NCBI GenBank assembly: GCA_017483225.1
Contig: JAFULF010000009.1
Location: 1 to 64,000 of the forward strand
Source of the DNA: Alistipes sp.
Lineage (GTDB): Bacteria; Bacteroidota; Bacteroidia; Bacteroidales; Rikenellaceae
Reading direction: 5' to 3'
DNA length: 64,000 nt
How positions within the stretch are numbered: the stretch's first letter is position 1; the number at the start of each line of letters is the position of its first letter. Positions 12,044-63,900 of this stretch are shown piece after piece. The notes under the pieces are model-generated. The model saw nothing but the letters and a program-made list of their open reading frames with translations, searched no databases and was not told where the DNA came from. Made by a program: the position numbers and the translations under genes.

Positions 12044-13126
12044 CTAATAATCACCACTTGCTGCTACACACATGGCAGCACGGGTGAACTCCTCAGGGAA
12101 ATGGGTTTTGAGGTAGGCGGTTGTATAGGCGAGGTAGGCGAGCACCACAGCGTGAGCCTTCGGGTAAGCATACAATCCCTGTTCGGTCATCGTTTGCCAA
12201 CTCGCTTCGCCATATTTTGCCACCCAGCGAGGGCGGTACAACTCCAATTTTTCGGTCTGTTTCTTGCCAACTGCACGGCGCAAATCATCCGCCTCAGTCT
12301 CGCTAAATCCGCACGCCATTGCATCACGCATTATCTCCTCCTGAAAGCAATATCGTGAATTGTTGTCGCTAAACATCTCAAACGCACCACACCAATGTAT
12401 GGCACAAAGGCGCACCAAGTCATCAAACGAGGTGGGTGGATTAAAATACATCTCATTTACTAACCTTCTGCGATTTAGGCAATAGATTCCCGCCAAGTCG
12501 CCATAGTGGAACGAGCGATAAGTCTCAGCATCGTCGAGCGGTATTCGCAAATCGCAGCCATTTGCCAAGTCGGACAGCATCAATCCGCACTTATCCCAAA
12601 TCTCGTGGTTTGTTCGACTAATAAGCCCTGCGATGTTTGATGCTACAAGTGTTATGTTATGCCCCTCGCTCTCATCGCAAGCAATCGCCTGCTCCAAATC
12701 TCGCAGATGAGATGGGCGCAAAATCTTACCAATAAGCAACTCAACCTCAATAAACTTTGGGCTATTCTCGGGCATAAATCGGGCAAACATAAGATCGTGC
12801 TTGATAGGGTCTATATTCGTGATTCGCAAGCAATAAAAGACTAACGAGGCAGAAAAGACTCCACGACCTGCGATATATGATATTCCCAACAGACTCATCT
12901 GCTCGGTCATATTCACCACACCGAGTAGATACTCCACATATTCACATCTCTCAAAAACCGCTATCTCGTGGTCGATGCGTTGCAGATACTCTTCTCGGTT
13001 TTCGGGAGTTAATAGGCCTCTCTCTTCTGCATTGTCAATAACAATTTTACGCAGATACTTTGCTGGCGATTTTGCAAATCTCTTGGGGAGCTTCAAACAT
13101 GGAATGTTAATCTTGTATTCGTTCAT
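12044..13126 (-). CDS. DnaE-like protein lacking polymerase catalytic motifs
   Basis: This 360-residue protein resembles a shrunken DNA polymerase III alpha subunit. Recognisable pieces, in order, are G-R-G-V-F-S-A-S-L-V-F-Y-C-L-R-I-T-N-I-D-P-I-K-H (the alpha GRGSxxGSLVAY...ITDIDPL region), Y-R-S-F-H-Y-G-D-L-A-G-I-Y-C-L, the segment around F-Q-E-E-I-M-R-D-A-M, R-R-A-V-G-K-K-Q, and K-A-H-A-V-V-L-A-Y-L-A-Y-T-T-A-Y-L-K. The catalytic PDxDxDF after RFLNPE is replaced by E-N-S-P-K-F-I-E-V-E, the second FDFLGL motif is gone, and no PHP or tau-binding domain is present. It cannot be an active polymerase. Its start overlaps the FtsK-gamma gene by 20 nt, in one operon with the SprT-like gene. Confidence 0.75.
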   Translation of the reverse strand: MNEYKINIPCLKLPKRFAKSPAKYLRKIVIDNAEERGLLTPENREEYLQRIDHEIAVFERCEYVEYLLGVVNMTEQMSLLGISYIAGRGVFSASLVFYCLRITNIDPIKHDLMFARFMPENSPKFIEVELLIGKILRPSHLRDLEQAIACDESEGHNITLVASNIAGLISRTNHEIWDKCGLMLSDLANGCDLRIPLDDAETYRSFHYGDLAGIYCLNRRRLVNEMYFNPPTSFDDLVRLCAIHWCGAFEMFSDNNSRYCFQEEIMRDAMACGFSETEADDLRRAVGKKQTEKLELYRPRWVAKYGEASWQTMTEQGLYAYPKAHAVVLAYLAYTTAYLKTHFPEEFTRAAMCVAASGDY

Positions 13127-13316
13127 TGTTACTCTCTTTTTGGGTTAATACTCCCGACACCTCGATTTGTCGGATAATACGGTTTGCTCGGTTAAAGCCG
13201 ATGCAGAACTTCTCGCTAATGCCCGAAGCGGTCAATCTTTTCTGTCCTCGAGCATACGCTACGACCTCGTCAAACAGCGGGTCGCAGTTGCTCTTGTCAA
13301 ATGTTCCGTTATTCAT
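13107..13316 (-). CDS. Stand-alone FtsK gamma-type winged-helix protein (copy 1)
   Basis: The 69-residue protein matches the DNA-binding gamma domain of FtsK: D-P-L-F-D-E-V-V-A-Y-A, then F-C-I-G-F-N-R-A-N-R-I-I-R-Q-I-E-V-S-G-V. In FtsK this winged helix reads KOPS sequences. Here there is no motor domain. The gene lies between the SprT-like and DnaE-like genes, overlapping both, so the three are co-translated. It could be a sequence-specific DNA-binding adaptor; this is inference. Confidence 0.8.
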   Translation of the reverse strand: MNNGTFDKSNCDPLFDEVVAYARGQKRLTASGISEKFCIGFNRANRIIRQIEVSGVLTQKESNNERIQD

Positions 13317-13785
13317 CTTCTTGCTTTATTATTTTGTTGATATAGTTATCGTTGTAAAGCCCTTTCTCTATCGCCTTAGCCATAAGAGCCGAGTAGATGC
13401 GCCAGAAGTTTTGTCCGTGAGGAGAGTCCTTCTTGCCACTGCGACGATGCTCGGTAAAATGGATATGGTGGGCGTATTCGTGGATAGCTATCTCCTCCAA
13501 CGAGTGGACATCGCCCCAGCCACCGTGAATCGTTATATTCCGCTTTGCTGGCACATAGTAGCCCATACGGCTCTTGGGGCGTTGCATCGTAACACGCAAT
13601 TCGAAAGCAACCTGCGGGCGGTAGATTTTCAACAACATCCATTTCAGATGCGTGGCAACTTTGGCTGTCGGGTCGGTTGAGCGATATGGCTTCTCGCAAA
13701 GTTTCGCAGGTTGTTCCTCGGCGGTCAGCTCGCTCCAGACGGCTCTAATCTCCGCCCATACTCTATGTAAAGCATCTAATTTCAT
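13309..13785 (-). CDS. SprT-like zinc metalloprotease
   Basis: The 158-residue protein carries a metalloprotease HExxH site at H102-E-Y-A-H106 and a downstream H123 (S-P-H-G-Q-N-F-W), the layout of SprT/Spartan-like domains. Those proteins degrade DNA-protein crosslinks or act on DNA-bound proteins. No zinc-ribbon tail is visible. It is the first gene of a three-gene operon with the FtsK-gamma protein and the DnaE-like protein, driven by a promoter with the island palindrome (13808-13824). The grouping suggests DNA transactions during island transfer or stress. Confidence 0.8.
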   Translation of the reverse strand: MKLDALHRVWAEIRAVWSELTAEEQPAKLCEKPYRSTDPTAKVATHLKWMLLKIYRPQVAFELRVTMQRPKSRMGYYVPAKRNITIHGGWGDVHSLEEIAIHEYAHHIHFTEHRRSGKKDSPHGQNFWRIYSALMAKAIEKGLYNDNYINKIIKQEDE

Positions 13786-13789
13786 AGTG

Positions 13790-13824
13790 CAAAGCTACCG
13801 TGTTATACTGACAAATTGTGGCAG
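13790..13824 (-). promoter_or_regulatory. Promoter and operator O1 (SprT operon)
   Basis: The minus-strand -7 box TAGCTTTG is at 13790-13797. Ten nt upstream lies the palindrome CTGACAAATTGTGGCAG (13808-13824, plus-strand reading), covering the -33 region. The -7 box is 4 nt from the ATG, so the transcript is nearly leaderless. Confidence 0.8.
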
Positions 13825-13826
13825 TG

Positions 13827-14108
13827 TTATTCAAAATGCGATAGTTCTTGTTCGAGTTCGGCAATTTTCTCTGCACCTGCTTCGAGGTCGTCGCAAAACA
13901 GCCCCGCAAACGAGCAGTTGCAGAGCATTTCGATATCGGCCTCGGTTATTGGGCGAGGAAAACCGCAGTCGGCGTATGGTTGCATCTTCCGCCACACGGC
14001 ACTAATGAGCGACTCGCCCGTGCGAATTTCGAGCCGAGGCTCTCGCTGCGCAAAATAGTAGAATAGCATCTCTCGGTGGAGCGCCTCGCAGAGTTCTTCT
14101 TTTGTCAT
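13827..14108 (-). CDS. Unknown 93-residue protein
   Basis: No family recognised. The product is acidic and mostly helical (MTKEELCEALHREMLFYYFA, with three cysteines near residues 53-72 in A-D-C-G-F... and C-N-C-S-F-A-G-L-F-C). A C-terminal E-rich helix ends at H-F-E. The gene is monocistronic, with the island palindrome promoter O5 directly upstream, which supports that it is real. Confidence 0.7.
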   Translation of the reverse strand: MTKEELCEALHREMLFYYFAQREPRLEIRTGESLISAVWRKMQPYADCGFPRPITEADIEMLCNCSFAGLFCDDLEAGAEKIAELEQELSHFE

Positions 14109-14132
14109 AGATCATTGGTTTTGATTTTGCGA

Positions 14133-14167
14133 CAAAAGTAAAACCCCTCTCTGCCATATTAGGACAG
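14133..14167 (-). promoter_or_regulatory. Promoter and operator O5 (93-residue gene)
   Basis: Minus-strand -7 box TACTTTTG at 14133-14140. The palindrome CTGCCATATTAGGACAG lies at 14151-14167, exactly 10 nt away. It overlaps the stop codon of the upstream gene. Confidence 0.8.
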
Positions 14168-14743
14168 ATAGAGAGACGAACATTCAGATCTTGTAATCCA
14201 ATATGCCAATTTTTCAATAAGTTTGGTAAATACATCATACGCTTTGTCTAAATCTACATAACCATAATTATTGATGCGTTGTAGCGGTTGGTGATATGGC
14301 GGGATATCGTAACTTTCACTATTGTTACTGTCGTCATATGACATCAACCCATACTCATACCTACATTTATCAAAAGCTTTAAGTTCTATTTGAACATAAC
14401 TTAAACTATTACTATCTAATTCTACTCGGATAGTGTTATTATCCGCTTCAACACCTCTTGCAGTAGAAGCAATATTATAAATATCTTCCCAAAGCCTATC
14501 GTGCCATAATTTGGTTAAGTGTGCAAGATAATAATCTGCTCGTTTTTTCATTTCTTGTATTTCTCGCTCTATAATATCTATCTGTGTCTCTTTTTCTGGT
14601 GTTACATTTCCTAGTTCCTCCATTGTGGTCGCGAGTTCCTCGATTTCGAGATTCTTTTGGGCAATTTCTTCTAATATAGCATTTATGTTTGCTAATGGGT
14701 CGTACTGCGAAAAATCAAATTCAGCGTAAAGTAAATCTTCCAT
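14159..14743 (-). CDS. Unknown 194-residue coiled-coil protein
   Basis: No family recognised. Residues about 18-75 form a long acidic helix or coiled coil (I-L-E-E-I-A-Q-K-N-L-E-I-E-E-L, then I-I-E-R-E-I-Q-E-M-K-K-R-A). The C-terminal half is Y- and D-rich (Y-E-Y-G-L-M-S-Y-D-D-S-N-N-S). It is transcribed from its own palindrome promoter O6 and is flanked by similarly organised single genes. Confidence 0.7.
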   Translation of the reverse strand: MEDLLYAEFDFSQYDPLANINAILEEIAQKNLEIEELATTMEELGNVTPEKETQIDIIEREIQEMKKRADYYLAHLTKLWHDRLWEDIYNIASTARGVEADNNTIRVELDSNSLSYVQIELKAFDKCRYEYGLMSYDDSNNSESYDIPPYHQPLQRINNYGYVDLDKAYDVFTKLIEKLAYWITRSECSSLYLS

Positions 14744-14777
14744 AGGCTTTGTATTGATTTTAGGTTTTATTATGTGA

Positions 14778-14812
14778 CAAATGTAAAACCCCTCTCTGCC
14801 ACATCAGGACAG
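14778..14812 (-). promoter_or_regulatory. Promoter and operator O6 (194-residue gene)
   Basis: Minus-strand -7 box TACATTTG at 14778-14785. The palindrome CTGCCACATCAGGACAG lies at 14796-14812, 10 nt upstream. The arms extend to CCCCTCTCTG / CAGAGAGGGG, a perfect 10-bp inverted repeat (14790-14819 region). Confidence 0.85.
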
Positions 14813-14841
14813 AGAGGGGTGTTCTTGCGTATTTTCGTTTT

Positions 14842-15093
14842 CTATTTCTGCCACTCGGCGAGTTTTTGTTCCAACTCCTTGACAGTGCAGAGTACAGCTC
14901 GGGGCTTGCATCGTACCGCCTCGCCAATAATGCCTGCCGCCTCCAACTGTGAAATGATGCGACTTGCACGATTGTAGCCGAGTTCAAAATCTCGTTGCAG
15001 AGCACTCGCCTGTGCCTTGCCAGTTTCTACCACATATTTCGCCACCTCAACAAACAGAGGGTCATCCTTCGAAAAATCAAATTTCTGTTCCAT
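14842..15093 (-). CDS. Stand-alone FtsK gamma-type winged-helix protein (copy 2)
   Basis: The 83-residue protein matches the FtsK gamma domain better than copy 1: D-D-P-L-F-V-E-V-A-K-Y-V-V-E-T-G-K, then L-Q-R-D-F-E-L-G-Y-N-R-A-S-R-I-I-S-Q-L-E-A-A-G-I. A short basic/acidic helical tail follows. There is no translocase motor. It starts 20 nt after the PLD gene and is the last gene of the operon that also encodes the WYL regulator and the Mrr-like nuclease. Confidence 0.85.
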   Translation of the reverse strand: MEQKFDFSKDDPLFVEVAKYVVETGKAQASALQRDFELGYNRASRIISQLEAAGIIGEAVRCKPRAVLCTVKELEQKLAEWQK

Positions 15094-15113
15094 AGGTTAT
15101 GTATTTATTTTGG

Positions 15114-15641
15114 TTATCTTATCCTGTCTCCACAGTAGGCCTTGCGTTTGCAGGCTTTGCAGTGTTCGCCCGACCAAACCGCGTTGAAATGGTCAGCAGC
15201 GGCATCTACCAACGCAAGGTCATCGATCAGAATGCCCGCCTCGAAGTTGCGTTTGCCATCAGACTTCATACCGATGCCTGCACCCGTAAGGTTTGCTGAG
15301 CCGACATAGGCCACCTCACAATCAAAAATCATCATTTTGAAATGGACTCTCGGACAGAGTTTGCGTTGCAACTTCCGAATCAGCGCAGGGTATCTGTCGA
15401 AATCCTCCCGAAAATTTGGTCCTGGCTCTTTGGCGTGCAGAAGTCGCACCTCCACACCCCGCCTGACGAGCAAATCCAGCACCGCAAGGAATGGCTGACT
15501 ACCTGAGCCGACCTTCACATAGAGGTCTTTGATATCGGCCGTACCAATCACAAGCGAATGCTTTACACTCGCCACCCGCGCCAGCACCTCATTGTAGTGC
15601 GCTATGTCGGAGATGTAGGTGGTCATAAGACTATTGCTCAA
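15114..15641 (-). CDS. Phospholipase D-like nuclease, single HKD motif
   Basis: This 175-residue PLD-superfamily protein has one complete HKD motif: H100-x-K102-x4-D107-x6-G-S-x-N117 (HFKMMIFD ... YVGSAN). One-motif enzymes of this size (Nuc, BfiI nuclease domain) act as dimers and cut DNA. Its start overlaps the Mrr-like gene by 11 nt, so the two nuclease genes are translationally coupled. A role in restriction or DNA processing is inferred. Confidence 0.82.
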   Translation of the reverse strand: MSNSLMTTYISDIAHYNEVLARVASVKHSLVIGTADIKDLYVKVGSGSQPFLAVLDLLVRRGVEVRLLHAKEPGPNFREDFDRYPALIRKLQRKLCPRVHFKMMIFDCEVAYVGSANLTGAGIGMKSDGKRNFEAGILIDDLALVDAAADHFNAVWSGEHCKACKRKAYCGDRIR

Positions 15642-16650
15642 TATAAGGGAAATTGCGTGCTATTCGTTTGAGACCTATTTGAACTAAAATATCTTTTAAC
15701 TCCTCTCCCATAATAAGTGTGATATTATTCTCTTTGCACAATGAAACCAATTCTATGTTGTGCTCTTTTTCAGCTTGTGTTACAATTAATATCTTTTCTA
15801 TGAGTTTGTCGCCATCTTTATCCCAATAAGTGGCCTTGTTTGTTTGACTGACAATATCTCGTATATTCCATACCGTATTTTTATAGTCTTTTATTTGAAT
15901 AGCAATTATATAATTGATTTGCGATAGTGGATTTGAAAATTTTATAACAACATCAGTTCCGTGCTCTACTTCTGTGATACCGCCAGTTCTTTCAATCGTG
16001 AATATCGGTTCTGGAAACAACTCTTTCAATCCGCACACTAACGCATCTTCCCACTCCGATGATTGGAATTGTTTTTGAAGATCTTGGAATAAAATGTCGG
16101 AAAAATCAGACTTGTTGAAAATCTGTTTGTAAGAACTCTCGATTGTTCCAGCCAGACGATTCTCTACACTATGATAGTTTCTCAATGCTTTCTCATTACC
16201 TCTCGATTCTATAATTTTCTCAATATCACCGGAAAGGTAATTTATATTCCAAAAACGACCAGGATTTTTTAGCGTTGAGCGAATGTCTCCGGAAACGACT
16301 TCGCTATGACGATTGAACACACACTTTACCTCGCCTGGGAAAATATGCCCAAAATCTTTAAGTTTTTCATTTATCTCAAATTTATAGCCACTTTTCCAAT
16401 CCTCTGTTGCTTCAACTATTGCCACATAGTTCCATTCTGGCAATCTTGGCACTAACAGATAATCGCCCTTTTTTACCTCAAACATTCTGCGATTCTTTGC
16501 AGCACCACCATCGTATGTCATGTTAAGCAAATCCTGTCCTTCATGATAGCCCCAACCTTGGTGCAATCTTCCAAGATTTAACTCTTTTGCAAAATACTCA
16601 ATGTGATCGGTACAAATTCTATAACCCCAATAGTTTTTCTTCCTTTCCAT
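15631..16650 (-). CDS. Mrr-like restriction endonuclease with N-terminal reader-like domain
   Basis: The 339-residue protein has a C-terminal Mrr-type PD-(D/E)xK fold with D233 (E-H-G-T-D-V-V-I-K-F) and Q252-x-K254 (A-I-Q-I-K-D-Y). The N-terminal part (1-110: W-G-Y-R-I-C, then K-K-G-D-Y-L-L-V-P-R-L-P-E-W and F-G-H-I-F-P-G-E) looks like a beta-barrel reader of the kind found in modification-dependent enzymes. A type IV-like enzyme that cuts modified DNA is therefore likely, but the reader assignment is by eye. It lies 31 nt downstream of the WYL regulator and overlaps the PLD gene. Confidence 0.75.
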   Translation of the reverse strand: MERKKNYWGYRICTDHIEYFAKELNLGRLHQGWGYHEGQDLLNMTYDGGAAKNRRMFEVKKGDYLLVPRLPEWNYVAIVEATEDWKSGYKFEINEKLKDFGHIFPGEVKCVFNRHSEVVSGDIRSTLKNPGRFWNINYLSGDIEKIIESRGNEKALRNYHSVENRLAGTIESSYKQIFNKSDFSDILFQDLQKQFQSSEWEDALVCGLKELFPEPIFTIERTGGITEVEHGTDVVIKFSNPLSQINYIIAIQIKDYKNTVWNIRDIVSQTNKATYWDKDGDKLIEKILIVTQAEKEHNIELVSLCKENNITLIMGEELKDILVQIGLKRIARNFPYIEQ

Positions 16651-16681
16651 ATATTATTATATCGTTTAGATAATTAACGCT

Positions 16682-17620
16682 TTACTTTTTATAAACCTTA
16701 AACTTATACTTTGGAGGGTTGAGGTGGTCATGGTAGATACTCTCCATATCGCAAACCTCTATATCAATCTCTTCTCGCAATGCCTTTGGCGCAAGCACCT
16801 CGATCGAGCCACCCATCGACAGCAACTTCTGCCTAAAATCAAAGGTCGGACATAGGCGGTACTCGAAGATCGAATACTCCTCGTTGCGTTCCACCTCAAC
16901 CTGCGTGTGGTGCAGTGGCAGGGTGCGAAGATACTTGCTCTGCCACGAATCGACCTTCAACGCCACAGGCTCGACAGCGAACTCTTCATCGCCGATGATT
17001 ATACCGTAGTAGTCCTCGAAGAACTTTGCCGCATCGAACTTCTTGGGCAGTTTGAATTTGCGCTCGGTTGGCTCCAACGCCTTTATTCGGTCAAGGGCAT
17101 AGATACGCAGTTTGTCGCTCATTCCGAGCATATACCACCTCTGCTCAAAGAGTTTCACGCAGTAAGGCTCCACCTCGAAGGTCGAAGGTTCCGACTTGCC
17201 GAAGCTCTGGTAGGTCATCGAGAGCGCCACATCCTCACGCATAGCCTCAACAATGGGCGTAAGGTATTGCTGTCCCGAAGGCACATCTTCCAAGAGGATA
17301 CGACCTTTGAGGTCTTGGCTCTCGTGCAGCACGCTACTCACGGAGAAGGTCTGCAACAGCCACTTACGCATCGCCATATTGTCGATGCCCTCGCGATTGG
17401 CAACCACATAGCCACGCTGCGCACGGTCATACTTGATATCGATATCGAACAACTCCATCACCGCCTCTTTGTAGCGGTGGAAGGTGCGTTCACCCAACTC
17501 CTCGCCACGCCCAAAGTGCAGTTCGTAGCGGTGTTGGAGGTCGGCAAGCGAAATGGGGCCTCGGTTGTATATGGTCGAAACAAACCACACATAACGGTTG
17601 ATAAGTCCTGCGGTACTCAT
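16682..17620 (-). CDS. WYL-domain transcriptional regulator
   Basis: The 312-residue protein has an N-terminal winged HTH (residues about 5-75), a central WYL domain (about 130-210: Y-C-V-K-L-F-E-Q-R-W-Y-M-L-G-M-S) and a C-terminal WCX-like extension. This is the architecture of BrxR/CapW-type regulators that control defence genes and bind inverted repeats. The upstream neighbour is a small membrane protein whose promoter carries the island palindrome O2. The WYL protein is thus probably autoregulated and is the best local candidate for binding all six palindromes. It has a weak promoter-like TAACTTTA of its own at 17641-17648. Confidence 0.85.
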   Translation of the reverse strand: MSTAGLINRYVWFVSTIYNRGPISLADLQHRYELHFGRGEELGERTFHRYKEAVMELFDIDIKYDRAQRGYVVANREGIDNMAMRKWLLQTFSVSSVLHESQDLKGRILLEDVPSGQQYLTPIVEAMREDVALSMTYQSFGKSEPSTFEVEPYCVKLFEQRWYMLGMSDKLRIYALDRIKALEPTERKFKLPKKFDAAKFFEDYYGIIIGDEEFAVEPVALKVDSWQSKYLRTLPLHHTQVEVERNEEYSIFEYRLCPTFDFRQKLLSMGGSIEVLAPKALREEIDIEVCDMESIYHDHLNPPKYKFKVYKK

Positions 17621-17650
17621 AATGGTCGTAATTTTAGGTAAAGTTACAAA

Positions 17651-17890
17651 TTATAATCGAATCCAACGCTCGGGCGAGGATAAAAAGTGCATCAGCACCG
17701 CTCCGATAACGACTCCAATCGCTACGGCAATTGCTATTTGTTTTCGTTGTCGTTGCTTGTTTTCGGGAAATGAGTCGGCACATTGTTGCCAATGCTCTGC
17801 CGTAAAAGGCTTGTTTGCAATGCTTTCCACCAACTGCTCACTAAATGATTTTTCCTTGCGATTTTGCTCGCTTGTTTTCTTCTGTTCCAT
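17651..17890 (-). CDS. Small single-pass membrane protein
   Basis: The 79-residue product has a charged N-terminal half (1-50) and one membrane helix at about 53-71 (I-A-I-A-V-A-I-G-V-V-I-G-A-V-L-M-H-F-L), leaving a short W-I-R-L tail. No family recognised. It is the first gene after promoter O2 and leads into the WYL, Mrr, PLD and FtsK-gamma genes. Confidence 0.7.
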   Translation of the reverse strand: MEQKKTSEQNRKEKSFSEQLVESIANKPFTAEHWQQCADSFPENKQRQRKQIAIAVAIGVVIGAVLMHFLSSPERWIRL

Positions 17891-17915
17891 AATCTTTGCT
17901 ATTTAATTTTTGTTG

Positions 17916-17953
17916 CAAAGGTATAATGCTACACTGTCAAATTGCGACAGTGT
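17916..17953 (-). promoter_or_regulatory. Promoter and operator O2 (WYL/Mrr/PLD operon)
   Basis: Minus-strand -7 box TACCTTTG at 17916-17923. Ten nt upstream is CTGTCAAATTGCGACAG (17934-17950), extended by ACA and TGT to 8-bp perfect outer arms (17931-17953). This is the most symmetric operator of the set. Confidence 0.87.
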
Positions 17954-17967
17954 AAAATTATGTCAGC

Positions 17968-17993
17968 AAAAAAAAGAGCCGATTACTCGACTC
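17968..17993 (-). terminator. Terminator of the W-repeat gene
   Basis: On the minus strand, GAGTCGA / TCGGCTC (one G-T pair) with a GTAA loop is followed by eight T (plus-strand A run 17968-17975). It lies 22 nt after the stop at 18016. Confidence 0.65.
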
Positions 17994-18015
17994 CTAAACA
18001 TCCGAAAAATGTTTA

Positions 18016-18537
18016 CTATCCCATAATATCCTCGACCAACTCATCGAAACGCTTTTCAACAAGAGCATCCCAGAGGTTAGAACCCTGAAACTCCTTCGCA
18101 GGAATAAACTCCTTGTAACGCTCCACAAAATCGGGCGTATAGAGTTCCTCATCGTGCCAACGATTGATAATTCGCTCCCAATCCCACTTGTCAGCAAACT
18201 TATCAAGTAAGGCATACGAGAGTTTTAGGTTGCTATTATCCAACAACTCATGCCAGTCCCATCGGTCGGCAAACTGCTCAATAATCTTTGGAGTGAGCAA
18301 TCCCTCGGGAGCGTAGCCCGACAATACTTTCCAATCGATATAACCCTTGAAGTTTTCGAGTATTGATGCAGTCCAGAGCATTTCGGTATTCTCCGATAAG
18401 ACGTCCCAGTCAATCTCACTGCGATACTTGCGGAGCAACTCCTCGTTCCACTTAAACTCGCGCGACAACTTCTTCCACGCCTCTTTGTTCAACTCCTGTG
18501 CGACGATTGCATCTGCAAAACTCTTCTTTGTTTCCAT
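18016..18537 (-). CDS. Tryptophan-rich tandem-repeat protein
   Basis: The 173-residue protein contains about four tandem units of roughly 25 residues, each close to I-I-E-x-F-x-D-x-W-D-W-x-x-L-S-x-N. The clearest W-centred parts are E-I-D-W-D-V-L-S, Y-I-D-W-K-V-L-S, R-W-D-W-H-E-L-L and K-W-D-W-E-R-I-I. Such helical repeats suggest a protein-binding solenoid. No enzyme motif is seen and I cannot name the family. It is a single gene with its own palindrome promoter O3 and terminator. Confidence 0.75.
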   Translation of the reverse strand: METKKSFADAIVAQELNKEAWKKLSREFKWNEELLRKYRSEIDWDVLSENTEMLWTASILENFKGYIDWKVLSGYAPEGLLTPKIIEQFADRWDWHELLDNSNLKLSYALLDKFADKWDWERIINRWHDEELYTPDFVERYKEFIPAKEFQGSNLWDALVEKRFDELVEDIMG

Positions 18538-18579
18538 AATTTCTAATTTTTAATGGTTAATACTACTTGTTTGATGGTG

Positions 18580-18614
18580 CAAAGTTGAGGTTTCACACTG
18601 CCACTTTGCGTCAG
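18580..18614 (-). promoter_or_regulatory. Promoter and operator O3 (W-repeat gene)
   Basis: Minus-strand -7-like CAACTTTG (7 of 8 to consensus) at 18580-18587. The palindrome CTGCCACTTTGCGTCAG lies at 18598-18614, exactly 10 nt away. Confidence 0.78.
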
Positions 18615-18622
18615 AGTGAAGT

Positions 18623-19660
18623 TTATTTTCTCACAAACTCATATAACTCGTGCAGGTAGTCGTCGATGTTTTCGTCAATGTAGAAACAATCTTTCCGCGG
18701 TTGCCAATGCAAATACACCTTATCCGAGAATAGGTCTTTACTCTTTTCCACATTCGACATATCCTCGGTAAGGCTATCGAAATAGTCCTTGAAATAGCTT
18801 TGCGTACGATTGTAAATCTCTTGCCCGAGTCGGATGTGAGGTGCACAATTTTGCTCAGCCTCGCGCACAAACTTCGCTCGAAACTCCTCAAACGGACAAC
18901 GCTTCCACCATTTCCAACCGCTGCCATCTTGCTCCTCCCAATGCTGATGCGAGACCTTGACCTCCACGCAAAAGTCGTTCATACGCAGAATGTCGGGAAT
19001 CGAGTAGGGCTTGTGGCAACTCAAATCGTGAATGGCGTGGCAGATGCAGAGGCGGCTTAACATATCGGCTGCGGGCTGCACCAACTCATACCAAGTTGTG
19101 CCATCGTTGAGGTCGTCTTTTATTCCTAACTCTTCGCGGCTCATCTCGGGGCGATAGTCAGCTGGCGAGCGGAGACACCAGCAATGCTCTACCTCTTCCA
19201 ATGTCAGAGGCTCACAGGTATAGAGCCAATCAATCACGCAAAACATCTCGTAGAAATACGAGCCATAGTAGTCGTCATTCGCCATCGGCAAAACAGCCCC
19301 ATATCCATTGGGTGAAAATCGGAGAGAGCCCTCAACCTCCACATCGTCATCAAATTCGGGGTTATAGGTAGCGGTTGCCATTTTGCGATAGAGCGCCTCG
19401 GTGCGAGCATACATTTTCTGCGTGAGGTCGTACAAACGACTGTTCACCTGCTCCATACGCACCACCTCCTCGGGCGTAGCAACAAACATCTTATCAAGCA
19501 GATGTTTGCGCTTCCAGATTAGGCGTTCCACCTGCTCGCATTTGCGTTGCGAGCGAGTCCACTCCATATTAAACTCCACATTCTTGCCCGTGATGGCAAG
19601 AATCTTCTCTTCGATTTTCTGCACCTGCGCTCGCAAGTGAGTATATTCTTTGTTTTTCAT
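18623..19660 (-). CDS. Unknown 345-residue protein
   Basis: No family recognised. The N-terminus (1-95) is a basic coiled coil (V-Q-K-I-E-E-K-I-L-A-I-T, then R-K-H-L-L-D-K-M-F). The rest is rich in W, Y, C and acidic residues (I-D-W-L-Y-T-C-E-P, H-C-W-C-L-R-S, W-K-W-W-K-R-C). ATG 19660 (MKNKEYTHL) is chosen because the palindrome promoter O4 ends just upstream; a longer frame would start inside the operator. It is monocistronic. Confidence 0.7.
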   Translation of the reverse strand: MKNKEYTHLRAQVQKIEEKILAITGKNVEFNMEWTRSQRKCEQVERLIWKRKHLLDKMFVATPEEVVRMEQVNSRLYDLTQKMYARTEALYRKMATATYNPEFDDDVEVEGSLRFSPNGYGAVLPMANDDYYGSYFYEMFCVIDWLYTCEPLTLEEVEHCWCLRSPADYRPEMSREELGIKDDLNDGTTWYELVQPAADMLSRLCICHAIHDLSCHKPYSIPDILRMNDFCVEVKVSHQHWEEQDGSGWKWWKRCPFEEFRAKFVREAEQNCAPHIRLGQEIYNRTQSYFKDYFDSLTEDMSNVEKSKDLFSDKVYLHWQPRKDCFYIDENIDDYLHELYEFVRK

Positions 19661-19683
19661 AATAAATGGTATGTAATTTTCGG

Positions 19684-19718
19684 CAAAACTACATCCCAAC
19701 AATGCCAAATTTCGTCAG
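19684..19718 (-). promoter_or_regulatory. Promoter and operator O4 (345-residue gene)
   Basis: Minus-strand -7 box TAGTTTTG at 19684-19691. The palindrome ATGCCAAATTTCGTCAG lies at 19702-19718, 10 nt away, with one base off the consensus outer arm. Confidence 0.75.
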
Positions 19719-19724
19719 TGCAGA

Positions 19725-20942
19725 TTATTCCCCCATAATCGCAGCGACTTTGTTCATCTCTTGGGCGAGAGATTCGTTCATAATGTGAGCGTAGTGGAGT
19801 GTCATTCGGGTATTCGTATGTCCGAGCATCTTCGATACATTCTCCAACTTTACATTATTCGCCAGCGTGATTGTCGTGGCAAATGTATAGCGGGCGGTAT
19901 GCATCGTAAGGTGCTTTTTAATGCCGCAAAAGTCAGCAATCTCTTTCAAGTACGAATTCATCTTCTGATTTGCGTATACCGGAAAGACCGTTTTATTTGC
20001 CCGACACATCGGGTGATTGCGATACTTCTCAATCAGTTGTAGCGGATACTCCAACAGCGGCACAAAGAACTCTACCTCGGTCTTTTGGCGTTGCTTGTGA
20101 ATCCATTTGCGTCCGTGTGCATCTTCCGTAATATGCTCGGGACGCAGGTTATAGACATCGATAAACGCCAAGCCTGTATAGCAGCAAAAGATAAATATAT
20201 CACGCACCATATTGAGTCGCTCTATGCCGAACTCCTTGGTGCGAATGGTATTTACCTCCTCAATCGTCAGGAAATCCTTGACGACCTTCTTCTCCGAGAA
20301 CTTGATGCCCGCAAATGGATTCGCCGTTATCCAACCGTTGGCGATAGCAAGATTGACCACCTTTTTCAGACACTTCATATAGCGAATCATCGTATTTTGC
20401 GCCACACGCTTCTCAATCTTCAAGAACGCCTCAAAATCACGAATCATTTCGCCGTTGAGGTTCTTGATAGGGAAGTCCGACACTTTGGTCTTGCGGGACA
20501 TCATCTCCTTGAAATAACGCAGACAAAGGCGATAACGGCTCAATGTAACCGCATCGAACTCGATGCCCACCAACTGCGCCATTCGCTCGTTATGCTCCTC
20601 AAAAGTGGCGTAGAACATCTTTTGGCTGATATGCTTGCCCTGCAAATACTCCTTGATTGTCAGTGGGTCGGCATAACCATCGCGCTCAACTAACTCTTTG
20701 TGAATCTCGTATGCTCGTGTTCGCAGCGATTCGAGATGGCGGTTAATCTCAATCGGGATAGGGCCTTTGCCAACGGCACGCTCTTTTTTGCTATCCCATA
20801 TGTTTGCAGGCACTTTACGCAGCGTGCTCATCTCTGTAAATCTGCCATTTACGGTAATGCGCATTGAAATTGGCGACTCGCCACTCTTTCCCAAACGCGA
20901 CTTGCGAATTAGGAAAAGGATTGAAAATGTACTCTTTATCAT
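19725..20942 (-). CDS. Island tyrosine integrase (Bacteroidetes type)
   Basis: The 405-residue integrase has an arm-type DNA-binding domain (1-90), a SAM-like core-binding domain (100-200) and a catalytic domain. The catalytic domain has H-T-A-R-Y-T-F-A-T, K-M-L-G-H-T-N and the likely nucleophile in T-L-H-Y-A-H-I. As in many Bacteroidetes element integrases, the first catalytic Arg position reads T-G-L-A-F-I-D-V instead of TGLR. ATG 20942 (MIKSTFSIL) fits the domain start. The gene lies beside the 3' end of tRNA-Phe, the usual position for an island integrase. It lacks the island palindrome. Confidence 0.88.
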   Translation of the reverse strand: MIKSTFSILFLIRKSRLGKSGESPISMRITVNGRFTEMSTLRKVPANIWDSKKERAVGKGPIPIEINRHLESLRTRAYEIHKELVERDGYADPLTIKEYLQGKHISQKMFYATFEEHNERMAQLVGIEFDAVTLSRYRLCLRYFKEMMSRKTKVSDFPIKNLNGEMIRDFEAFLKIEKRVAQNTMIRYMKCLKKVVNLAIANGWITANPFAGIKFSEKKVVKDFLTIEEVNTIRTKEFGIERLNMVRDIFIFCCYTGLAFIDVYNLRPEHITEDAHGRKWIHKQRQKTEVEFFVPLLEYPLQLIEKYRNHPMCRANKTVFPVYANQKMNSYLKEIADFCGIKKHLTMHTARYTFATTITLANNVKLENVSKMLGHTNTRMTLHYAHIMNESLAQEMNKVAAIMGE

Positions 20943-21027
20943 AACTCTAAATATTAAAAAATGGTGCAATTCGCAACCAGATAAAGAGTAGTGTAAAATC
21001 TTGAAAATTGGTTAATTAGACGCTAAT

Positions 21028-21153: not shown

Positions 21154-21177
21154 GACTAAATTGTCATTTTCTTCAAG

Positions 21178-21250
21178 TGGTGCCACCAGGAATCGAACCG
21201 GGGACACAAGGATTTTCAGTCCTTTGCTCTACCAACTGAGCTATGGCACC
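21178..21250 (-). tRNA. tRNA-Phe (GAA)
   Basis: On the minus strand a 73-nt cloverleaf is visible. The acceptor arms GGTGCCA and TGGCACC are followed by discriminator A. The D-arm is GCTC...GAGC, the anticodon stem AAGGA/TCCTT surrounds loop CTGAAAA (anticodon GAA), and the T-loop is TTCGATT. The T-stem has one apparent mismatch. CCA is not encoded. The integrase lies at its 3' side, marking the probable insertion site of the island. Confidence 0.95.
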
Positions 21251-63354: not shown

Positions 63355-63900
63355 CCCCAGCCCCACGTGGGTATCGTTTTCGATACCCACGTAGGAGGGA
63401 ACGGTAGGCAAAGAGGGGGGGCAAGCAATGGCAGTGAATGGCAGTGAATGGCAGTGAATGGCAGTGAATGGCAGTGAATGACAACGCCGACTCTCGTCGG
63501 CTTAATGGCATTGGCGCAACGGGATTGGCGCAACGGCAAAGGTTGTTAAAGGTGATTAAAGGGAATTAAAGGTAATTAAGGGAAGCGCAGGCAGTCTCTT
63601 GGCAAGGTCGTAAGAGTCTGCAATCTATTGCGCATCCTTAACAACCCTTAATAACCCTTAACTCCCTTAATAGCCATTATACTCTTGCGCAACGAAAGGT
63701 CAAGTAAAGTCAAGTAAGGTCACGCAACCTGCGGTTGCTTTAAGGTCGAGCGCAGAAGTGATGCCCTACCCCACTATCCAATCTCCCACAACCACCTTAT
63801 CTGACCTTATTTGACCTTATCCGACCTTAATTGACATTACACCCTACGTGGGTATCGTTTTCGATACCCACGTAGGAGGGAACGATGTGCAAAGAGGGGA
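63355..63900. repeat. Composite intergenic repeat R3
   Basis: No gene in this stretch. It contains two copies of the hairpin GGGTATCG-TTTT-CGATACCC (63370-63389 and 63850-63869; the second has 15-bp arms including CCTACGT). Other parts are a G7 tract, five 10-bp tandem repeats (63431-63480), GGCGCAACGGG, AAGGTTGTTAAAGG / TTAACAACCCTT arms, and the AAGGTCAAG / CTATCCAATCTCCC / TGACCTTA module also found in R1 and R2. Confidence 0.8.
63431..63480. repeat. Tandem 10-bp repeat, five copies
   Basis: Five exact copies of GCAGTGAATG. R1 has the same place occupied by about one and a half diverged copies (near 36145-36165), so copy number varies. Confidence 0.9.

Follow-up and report, generated by a model that had tools for sequence, protein, structure and literature searches.

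Transcription factors with a WYL domain are common, and to our knowledge few of them have a known operator. Here we describe a 17-bp palindrome at six minus-strand promoters of an island in an Alistipes sp. draft genome (contig JAFULF010000009.1, positions 1 to 64,000; this whole 64,000-nt stretch is called the window), which is probably read by the WYL protein that the island itself encodes (16682–17620). The closest is DriD of Caulobacter crescentus, a WYL activator of a LexA-independent DNA damage response that responds to single-stranded DNA (ssDNA) (PMC12340889). DriD binds ATACGAC-N7-GTCGTAT over the -35 region of promoters with poor -35 elements, at a constant distance from the -10 box, and a site also precedes driD itself, where the paper does not count activation as shown (PMC12340889). 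The island sites resemble those of DriD in their two-fold symmetric GnC-N7-GnC core, in overlapping the -35 (here -33) region at one distance from the -10 (here -7) box, in the presence of a site before the regulator's own gene and in the sequence relation of the WYL-WCX part of the protein. They differ in the outer bases (ATAC/GTAT in DriD, CTG/CAG here), in the -7 box, which has the Bacteroidota form TAnnTTTG, and in the targets, which are bapE, recJ, dnaG and didA for DriD but mobile-island genes of varied families here.

The mycobacterial PafBC, the best match of the island protein in profile searches of PDB, is likewise a WYL activator and compensates for a missing -35 contact ("sigma adaptation"), whereas it acts as a heterodimer or a fused double protein, reads a -26 motif with the helix-turn-helix (HTH) of PafB and, without polymerase, does not bind promoter DNA (PMC11804915). 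The island WYL factor is one 312-aa protein with one WYL stretch, unlike the PafBC arrangement. SiwR of Mycobacterium smegmatis is a homodimeric WYL activator with a palindrome upstream of the -10 box, but its site is a 19-bp imperfect palindrome spanning -10 to -35, and one adjacent operon was studied (PMC10693628). BrxR and CapW are WYL regulators linked to defence genes (PMC9122601, PMC9122588), and BrxR has inverted-repeat sites (PMC9122601); in contrast, BrxR is a repressor, and its R-BOX1, which lies downstream of the -10 box, combines arms of 11 bp with a 5-bp spacer (PMC9122601). Both are more weakly related in sequence to the island protein. All six island sites lie upstream of the -7 box, unlike R-BOX1.

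The LexA box of E. coli reads CTGT-N8-ACAG. The likeness of the island sites to it, together with the SprT-like and DnaE-like genes of the island, had first suggested a LexA/SOS box, a candidate that was dropped because the published SOS motifs of Bacteroidetes differ (PMC8565304). The LexA-like repressors of this phylum also use palindromic operators, but these are GGA-N5-TCC and CTAA-N5-TTAG, and the proteins belong to the S24 peptidase family, not to the WYL family (PMC8565304); the six island sites read CTGnC-N7-GnCAG, one of them with a mismatch. Under the terms searched, we found no published description of the Bacteroidales operator, of its placement at a TAnnTTTG promoter or of the island gene sets. 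WYL activators as a kind are already known.

Six operator sites in the Alistipes island

Position 1 of the window is the start of the contig, and the island half extends from there to a putative integrase (19725–20969) adjoining a tRNA-Phe gene (21177–21250); the part used was 1–21176 in the shuffles and 1–21300 in the spacing count. The site, its exact distance from the -7 box, its conservation and its linkage to WYL genes were all computed. An earlier note on this DNA had reported six palindromes, each separated by 10 nt from a TAnnTTTG-like box, and all six were recovered, at 13808, 14151, 14796, 17934, 18598 and 19702, each 17 bp long:

13790–13824, minus strand: operator 13808–13824, 10 nt, -7 box TAGCTTTG (13790–13797); promoter of the operon of the SprT-like, 69-aa winged-helix and DnaE-like genes
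14133–14167, minus strand: operator 14151–14167, 10 nt, -7 box TACTTTTG; promoter of the 93-aa open reading frame (ORF); duplicated promoter
14778–14812, minus strand: operator 14796–14812, 10 nt, -7 box TACATTTG; promoter of the 194-aa ORF; duplicated promoter
17916–17950, minus strand: operator 17934–17950, 10 nt, -7 box TACCTTTG; promoter of the operon 79-aa ORF, WYL, 339-aa ORF, PLD, FtsK-gamma; proposed autoregulation
18580–18614, minus strand: operator 18598–18614, 10 nt, -7 box CAACTTTG; promoter of the 173-aa ORF
19684–19718, minus strand: operator 19702–19718 (one mismatch), 10 nt, -7 box TAGTTTTG; promoter of the 345-aa ORF

The consensus CTGNCA-N5-TGNCAG, for which one or two changes had been allowed, describes the six sites with 0, 1, 1, 1, 1 and 2 mismatches, but CTGnC-N7-GnCAG, read on the minus (transcribed) strand, fits better, with no mismatch at five sites and one at 19702. 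The gap to the -7 box was exactly 10 nt at 6/6 sites; five boxes are strict TAnnTTTG, and the box at 18580–18587 is CAACTTTG, which gives (T/C)AnnTTTG as the joint form. The palindrome alone, with at most two mismatches, barely exceeds chance in the 64 kb (33 observed versus 24.65 expected; 3 of 100 shuffles reach 33). The palindrome with at most one mismatch and a box at 10 nt was observed six times, and 1,000 dinucleotide shuffles of 1–21176 yielded it never (989 shuffles) or once (11 shuffles); in the window outside 1–21176 the combination does not occur. The sites at 14151 and 14796 sit in a duplicated promoter (57 nt, 84% identical), so that the six sites have at most five independent origins, and the repeat family of this duplicate also includes 19666–19722 (61%). 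In the genome to which the island belongs (a draft of 1.86 Mb in 42 contigs, 90% complete), the pattern CTGnC-N7-GnCAG-N11-AnnTTTG had five matches, all on the island and on one strand, and the control had none; the site at 19702 falls outside this pattern because of its mismatch. The earlier note had named occurrence at many unrelated genome promoters as a refutation; all five exact matches of this 90% complete draft being on the island, the outcome favours its interpretation. A short tandem repeat around ATGGCAGTGA at 63418–63484 yields repeated palindrome-like matches.

If close or overlapping neighbours are read as operons, all minus-strand ORFs taken as genes in 12044–19660 lie downstream of a site, in six units that each begin behind one site, in accord with the proposal that the sites control every non-integrase minus-strand gene of the island half. 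The integrase and the plus-strand genes had no site in the operator scan; the earlier note had named the integrase and the plus-strand defence operon as lacking it. The start codon of the SprT-like gene lies just 4 nt past the -7 box (13785–13797), as it does in two related loci (L106 and L107), so that this transcript would be leaderless or nearly so.

Conservation within the genus and beyond

Conservation in homologous islands, which the earlier note had made a second condition, was found both in the genus and beyond it and likewise favours its interpretation. The operator pattern had 39 matches in 21/180 genomes of the genus (the island's own genome included), and a backward control had 8 matches in 7/180. 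The genus islands bear several sites each, up to eight by a looser rule under which some may be chance, and these precede relatives of the window genes as well as FtsK-like, KaiC/DnaB-like and 550–569-aa proteins; for the last, Pfam identifies one relative (L146) as an AAA ATPase. Among the 22 same-genus stretches fetched by the operator pattern (L034–L055), a WYL relative was present in 14/22 and an XRE relative in 1/22; the earlier note had offered both the WYL and the XRE protein as the factor, and these counts favour the former, with the XRE protein dropped as a regulator. Conversely, the pattern matched 12/15 genus genomes with a WYL protein of at least 50% identity versus 9/165 others (Fisher 7e-11, a value that ignores relatedness).

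Genomes on which pattern and WYL protein disagree were inspected singly. Of the three with a WYL relative of at least 50% identity and no pattern match, G079 has before its WYL gene a variant that keeps the symmetry (GTGTC...GTCAC, 10 nt, TATCTTTG), G024 has a perfect palindrome with TTTCTTTG, and G131 is taken up below. Among the nine genomes with a pattern match and no WYL relative of 50% identity, G075 and G171 carry a more distant or partial WYL gene within the stretch, and G064, G121 and G050 have relatives of the island genes near a contig end or on a short contig. The matches in G084, G091 and G096 and the G093:C1 match have no island context, except for FtsK-gamma matches 9.7 kb from the G084 site, and were taken as chance. 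A divergent pair of sites between a 120–127-aa ORF and a 566-aa ORF was seen in two stretches (L036:8274–8382 and L046:8786–8894); no WYL gene was found in the 18 kb of L036.

To the window part 1–21300 we added 80 loci (the best 80 of 111 from a scan of named genomes with a WYL alignment), drawn from Alistipes and other Rikenellaceae, Phocaeicola, Parabacteroides, Dysgonomonas, Paludibacteraceae, Prevotellaceae and others, and in the resulting 1.243 Mb counted non-redundant palindromes with a strict TAnnTTTG box at distances of 0–39. With at most one mismatch, the box stood at distance 10 for 67/957 palindromes and at every other distance for 0–2. With no mismatch, the figures were 39/133 at distance 10 and none at other distances; exact palindromes match both strands, so that many of the 133 face away from the promoter. 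The reversed-palindrome control with no mismatch gave 0/14. In a blind test, the letters were ignored and palindromic pairs were counted upstream of 45 strict boxes lying at most 200 nt upstream of WYL genes in the 80 loci. Offset 10 alone formed a peak, with a mean of 2.64 of 5 pairs versus 1.00–1.76 at the other 30 offsets, and at least four pairs were found for 14/45 boxes at offset 10 and at most 4/45 elsewhere.

The fuller consensus from 71 sites was CTGnC-RYRW-TTTG-KCAG-TnT followed by TAnYTTTGC, with the half-site nearer the -7 box more strongly fixed than the far half. In the GnC-N7-GnC core, the G, C, G and C were present at 71, 71, 70 and 71 of 71 sites, a count favoured by the selection, which allowed at most one mismatch in eight positions. 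A compensating pairing of the variable half-site letters at positions 4 and 14 was rejected, since in the 57 sites of the Arg class (described below) they combine freely (C/G 16, T/G 12, A/T 7, A/G 6, C/T 6, T/T 5, A/A 3, T/A 2); position 4 on the left is never G and position 14 on the right never C.

As a check on held-out data, the best three of the 25 matching plasmid records, all three annotated and with WYL proteins of 41–43% identity, were taken once the site rule had been fixed, with C also allowed as the first box letter; about 0.1 site per record is expected by chance, by an estimate that assumes equal base use. Four sites, all at exactly 10 nt, were found in Prevotella sp. E2-28; they precede a 390-bp ORF (with zapA next to it), a 550-aa ATP-binding protein, dnaE and one more ORF. 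In Segatella hominis a single place can be read from either strand, and the S. copri record has no site. At L188:2560–2612, one symmetric operator is flanked on each side by a -7 box at 10 nt (TACCTTTG and CATCTTTG) and possibly serves two divergent promoters; no listed gene starts within 250 nt on the minus side. WYL relatives were not confirmed in viral contigs (19 stretches with the pattern, 0 by tblastn), and among 50,697 phage records they occur in 9, all unannotated human faecal contigs, at no more than 43.7% identity.

The WYL protein and the genes behind the sites

The genes of the island that bear on the operator are the following:

16682–17620, minus strand: WYL-domain transcription factor, 312 aa (Pfam WYL 2.5e-15, WCX 1.6e-07; PDB profile matches to PafBC and DriD); proposed operator-binding regulator
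17651–17890, minus strand: 79-aa protein, first gene of the WYL operon; has sequence relatives
15631–16650, minus strand: 339-aa protein of the WYL operon; no Pfam, PADLOC or NCBIfam match
15114–15641, minus strand: PLD-like protein (Pfam PLDc_2 8.2e-13)
14842–15093, minus strand: stand-alone FtsK-gamma winged helix, 83 aa (Pfam FtsK_gamma 3.3e-22)
14159–14743, minus strand: 194-aa protein; no match above the curated cut-off
13827–14108, minus strand: 93-aa protein; no match above the curated cut-off
13309–13785, minus strand: SprT-like protein (Pfam SprT-like 0.00048, 20.4 bits, below the cut-off of 25.6)
13107–13316, minus strand: 69-aa FtsK-gamma-like winged helix (NCBIfam FtsK 1.6e-10, below its cut-off)
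12044–13126, minus strand: 360-aa shortened DNA polymerase III alpha-like (DnaE-like) protein (Pfam 1.1e-18 and 8.1e-12; NCBIfam polc 4.7e-40, below its cut-off)
18016–18537, minus strand: 173-aa protein; no family match
18623–19660, minus strand: 345-aa protein; no match above the curated cut-off
19725–20969, minus strand: putative tyrosine-type integrase, named by inspection of its sequence and not by family search; no operator
21177–21250, minus strand: tRNA-Phe, adjoining the integrase

The draft genome has one WYL match at E values up to 1e-20, the 312-aa protein with its single WYL stretch. A PDB profile search with 51 relatives matched PafBC (2.2e-17) and DriD (8tp8, 1.6e-14, over profile positions 121–297), and more weakly CapW (0.0035–0.012) and BrxR (0.022–0.074); structure 8tp8 is named DriD in PMC11804915 and structure 7qfz BrxR in PMC9122601. 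Within the WYL region, W162, Y163, L176, D177 and R178 do not vary among the 51 relatives, as would be expected of a working ligand groove. Residues 1–116, which no Pfam or PDB match covers, suit the position of an HTH and contain a conserved F47-H48-R/N49 stretch, which we take as the putative recognition helix.

In most WYL relatives F47-H48 is followed by Arg or Asn, and the outer operator bases differ with this residue. For proteins with Arg at residue 49, the outer positions hold C at 49/57 sites and G at 48/57; for those with Asn, the counts fall to 3/19 and 2/19, and A/G and T/C prevail. Another four sites fall in other or unread classes. This link agrees with the WYL protein as reader of the site but is not independent proof. 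An association built from many independent events was rejected, as a tree of 60 WYL proteins (a quick tree, with 24/57 inner branches weakly supported) shows a single change between Arg and Asn. The WYL protein of Prevotella E2-28 has Lys at residue 49, and its four operators start with GTG, ATG, CTG and ATG and end with CAC; Segatella WYL proteins have INN in place of FHR or FHN.

By the looser rule, 101 sites were available for a count of downstream genes, 99 of them with an ORF of at least 50 aa downstream, some short ones of which may not be genes. These 99 sites precede 36 sequence families, the largest being the WYL gene, directly behind 20/99 sites in 20 loci, which had been chosen for WYL. 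Members of the window's 345-aa, 173-aa and 79-aa families have sites before them in seven loci each (including the window for the 345-aa and 173-aa families), and an AAA protein family of 550–571 aa is behind sites in six loci. Rarer families, with few cases each, are bpMoxR AAA, FtsZ/tubulin-like, HIRAN and WG-repeat proteins, a DnaB protein with sigma-70 region 2 (by Pfam) and a DUF262-type protein (the last by its letters only). Many of the genes behind the sites are of DNA-processing or conflict type; a common pathway is not proved.

Several of these genes have features of their own. The 360-aa DnaE-like protein, with relatives in 8/22 related stretches, retains two separated parts of DNA polymerase III alpha, namely, the start of the NTPase domain and the end of the finger. 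Besides the two stand-alone FtsK-gamma winged helices of the window (14842–15093 and 13107–13316), a related island has an FtsK/SpoIIIE-like 239-aa protein behind the same operator (L108:6896), and in another locus an ORF behind an operator fuses a DnaB-C domain to sigma-70 region 2 (L162:10688-, by Pfam). On its plus strand the window's island has genes for type I restriction-modification as well as AbiP-like and AAA genes, among others. At 148–1846, a reversed HsdS-like ORF (178 aa) lies beside a gene that looks like a recombinase by its letters (920–1846) and a type I restriction-modification operon, and the locus is perhaps a phase-variable specificity locus. The tRNA-Phe gene is likely the integration target of the island; the list of direct repeats (16 nt or longer) in 1–21400 contains no copy of its end, and the far end of the island may be missing because the contig begins at position 1.

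Probable activation by the WYL protein and its alternatives

The best reading of the window, from the sequence comparisons above, is an island regulon controlled by the WYL protein and probably activated by it, as one instance of a Bacteroidales promoter class. The earlier proposal of a coherent, apparently undescribed regulon under one factor is thereby supported, but it is not private to this island, as loci beyond the genus carry it as well. We consider it probable that the palindrome is the operator of the WYL factor and that it activates promoters without a usable -33 element, with ssDNA as a signal by analogy. The shared GnC-N7-GnC core, the position and the fixed spacing make DriD-like activation the best account. 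A WYL dimer would read the two GnC half-sites, which flank the place where the sigma factor would read the -33 element, and once bound would help the housekeeping RNA polymerase to start at promoters whose -7 box is good and which lack a usable -33 box. The WYL operon carries a site, so the switch would feed back on itself through it. The signal would probably be ssDNA from DNA damage or from replication or transfer of the island itself, by analogy with DriD and PafBC.

With the TA of the box set at -12/-11 (our numbering), the start would be about 31 nt downstream of the operator centre. Ordinary -33/-7 promoters of B. thetaiotaomicron have a variable spacer length (PMC7366714), and the remaining promoters of these loci show an enrichment of TTG at N19 (25/392) and N20 (44/392) before the -7 box, the usual -33 place. 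At N18–21, TTG occurs in 0/80 site promoters versus 87/392 others, partly by construction; N18–19 provide a free comparison, with TTG in 0/80 site promoters versus 34/392 others. TTTG at N14, the operator's own letters, also occurs in 23/392 control promoters, some of which may therefore be weaker sites of the same kind.

Several observations weigh against an activating WYL protein. The lack of TTG is partly by construction because C is fixed at operator position 5, and an autorepressor sitting over the -33 region would also occupy a roughly constant place. In the spacing count, two mismatches blur the peak (85/8215 at distance 10, up to 11 elsewhere), and the reversed-palindrome control peaks at distance 8 (7/562 with one mismatch, 20/6742 with two); in the blind test, all five pairs were present at offset 10 in just 1/45 boxes. 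The PDB matches span the WYL-WCX part, not the DNA-binding domain. The Arg/Asn switch occurred once, so that the Fisher values for its link to the outer bases (4e-8 and 1e-8) do not count independent events, and L134 combines an Asn protein with one CTG...CAG site, in a stretch with a second WYL gene. Selection of the 80 loci for a WYL gene inflates the link between WYL and site in them, and up to 22/66 WYL sequences have no site by the strict inner pattern, an upper figure because identical sites were counted once. In the genus, no site is listed in 19.9 kb of G131, whose WYL protein shares 50% identity, and the two sites of the G036 stretch precede genes similar to those of G090:C11, with no WYL gene found in 18 kb.

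The alternative that survives best keeps the WYL protein on the operator but makes it a repressor, which would block sigma at the -33 region until lifted by a signal, as in BrxR and CapW. The phage-defence WYL regulators identified so far are described as repressors (PMC10693628), BrxR is one (PMC9122601), the island also bears defence-type genes, and the overlap of site and promoter would allow blocking. We nevertheless regard repression as unlikely: a repressor does not need one exact spacing across a whole order, the BrxR site differs in its 11-bp arms, its 5-bp spacer and its position downstream of the -10 box (PMC9122601), the WYL-WCX part is closer to PafBC and DriD than to BrxR and CapW, and the usual TTG at N20 has no room beside the operator. 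On the choice between repression and activation, which the earlier note had left open, the evidence leans towards activation.

That another DNA-binding protein of the island, XRE (2015–2227) or one of the small FtsK-gamma winged helices, binds the palindrome is very unlikely. Both are small DNA-binding folds of the island, and FtsK-gamma relatives occur in 10/22 operator-fetched stretches. The XRE count of 1/22, however, compares with 14/22 for WYL; L040, L044, L054 and L055 have an operator and a WYL gene with no FtsK-gamma match (sought in the 22 stretches and near the genus only); and the WYL gene is the commonest direct neighbour of the sites, in part because the loci were chosen for it. 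We consider it highly improbable that the palindrome belongs to a core promoter read by a dedicated sigma factor. A sigma factor would produce exact spacing to the -7 box, but the box is the ordinary TAnnTTTG of the housekeeping sigma (PMC7366714), the two-fold symmetry indicates a dimer, the operator letters track the class of the putative WYL helix, and no sigma gene was found among the island proteins searched, a set that covers part of the plus-strand ORFs. Mere copying of promoters, to which the 84% identical 57-nt duplicate and its 61% relative at 19666–19722 would point, is largely refuted as the sole reason for the likeness of the six sites, as the remaining promoters share little except operator and box, and 36 sequence families have this operator before them.

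For this order of gut bacteria, the operator, its place in the promoter, its change with the class of the WYL protein and the candidate controlled genes can be read from sequence, which offers a testable route to the island genes that answer one signal. WYL-mediated activation at these sites would suggest that the replacement of a missing -33/-35 contact, a mechanism described in Caulobacter and mycobacteria, extends to the unusual promoter of Bacteroidota. More tentatively, and with less confidence than we place in activation itself, the islands and plasmids of Bacteroidales may carry LexA-independent alarm circuits, in which an ssDNA-sensing WYL activator replaces the -33 contact at promoters that nothing else opens and so turns on silent sets of DNA-processing and conflict genes (DnaE-like, SprT-like, FtsK-like, AAA, MoxR, FtsZ-like and DUF262 proteins), with residue 49 setting the operator letters. 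If so, a 35-base promoter signature would find hidden gene sets by sequence alone, and circuits within one cell could stay separate through the operator letters that residue 49 sets.

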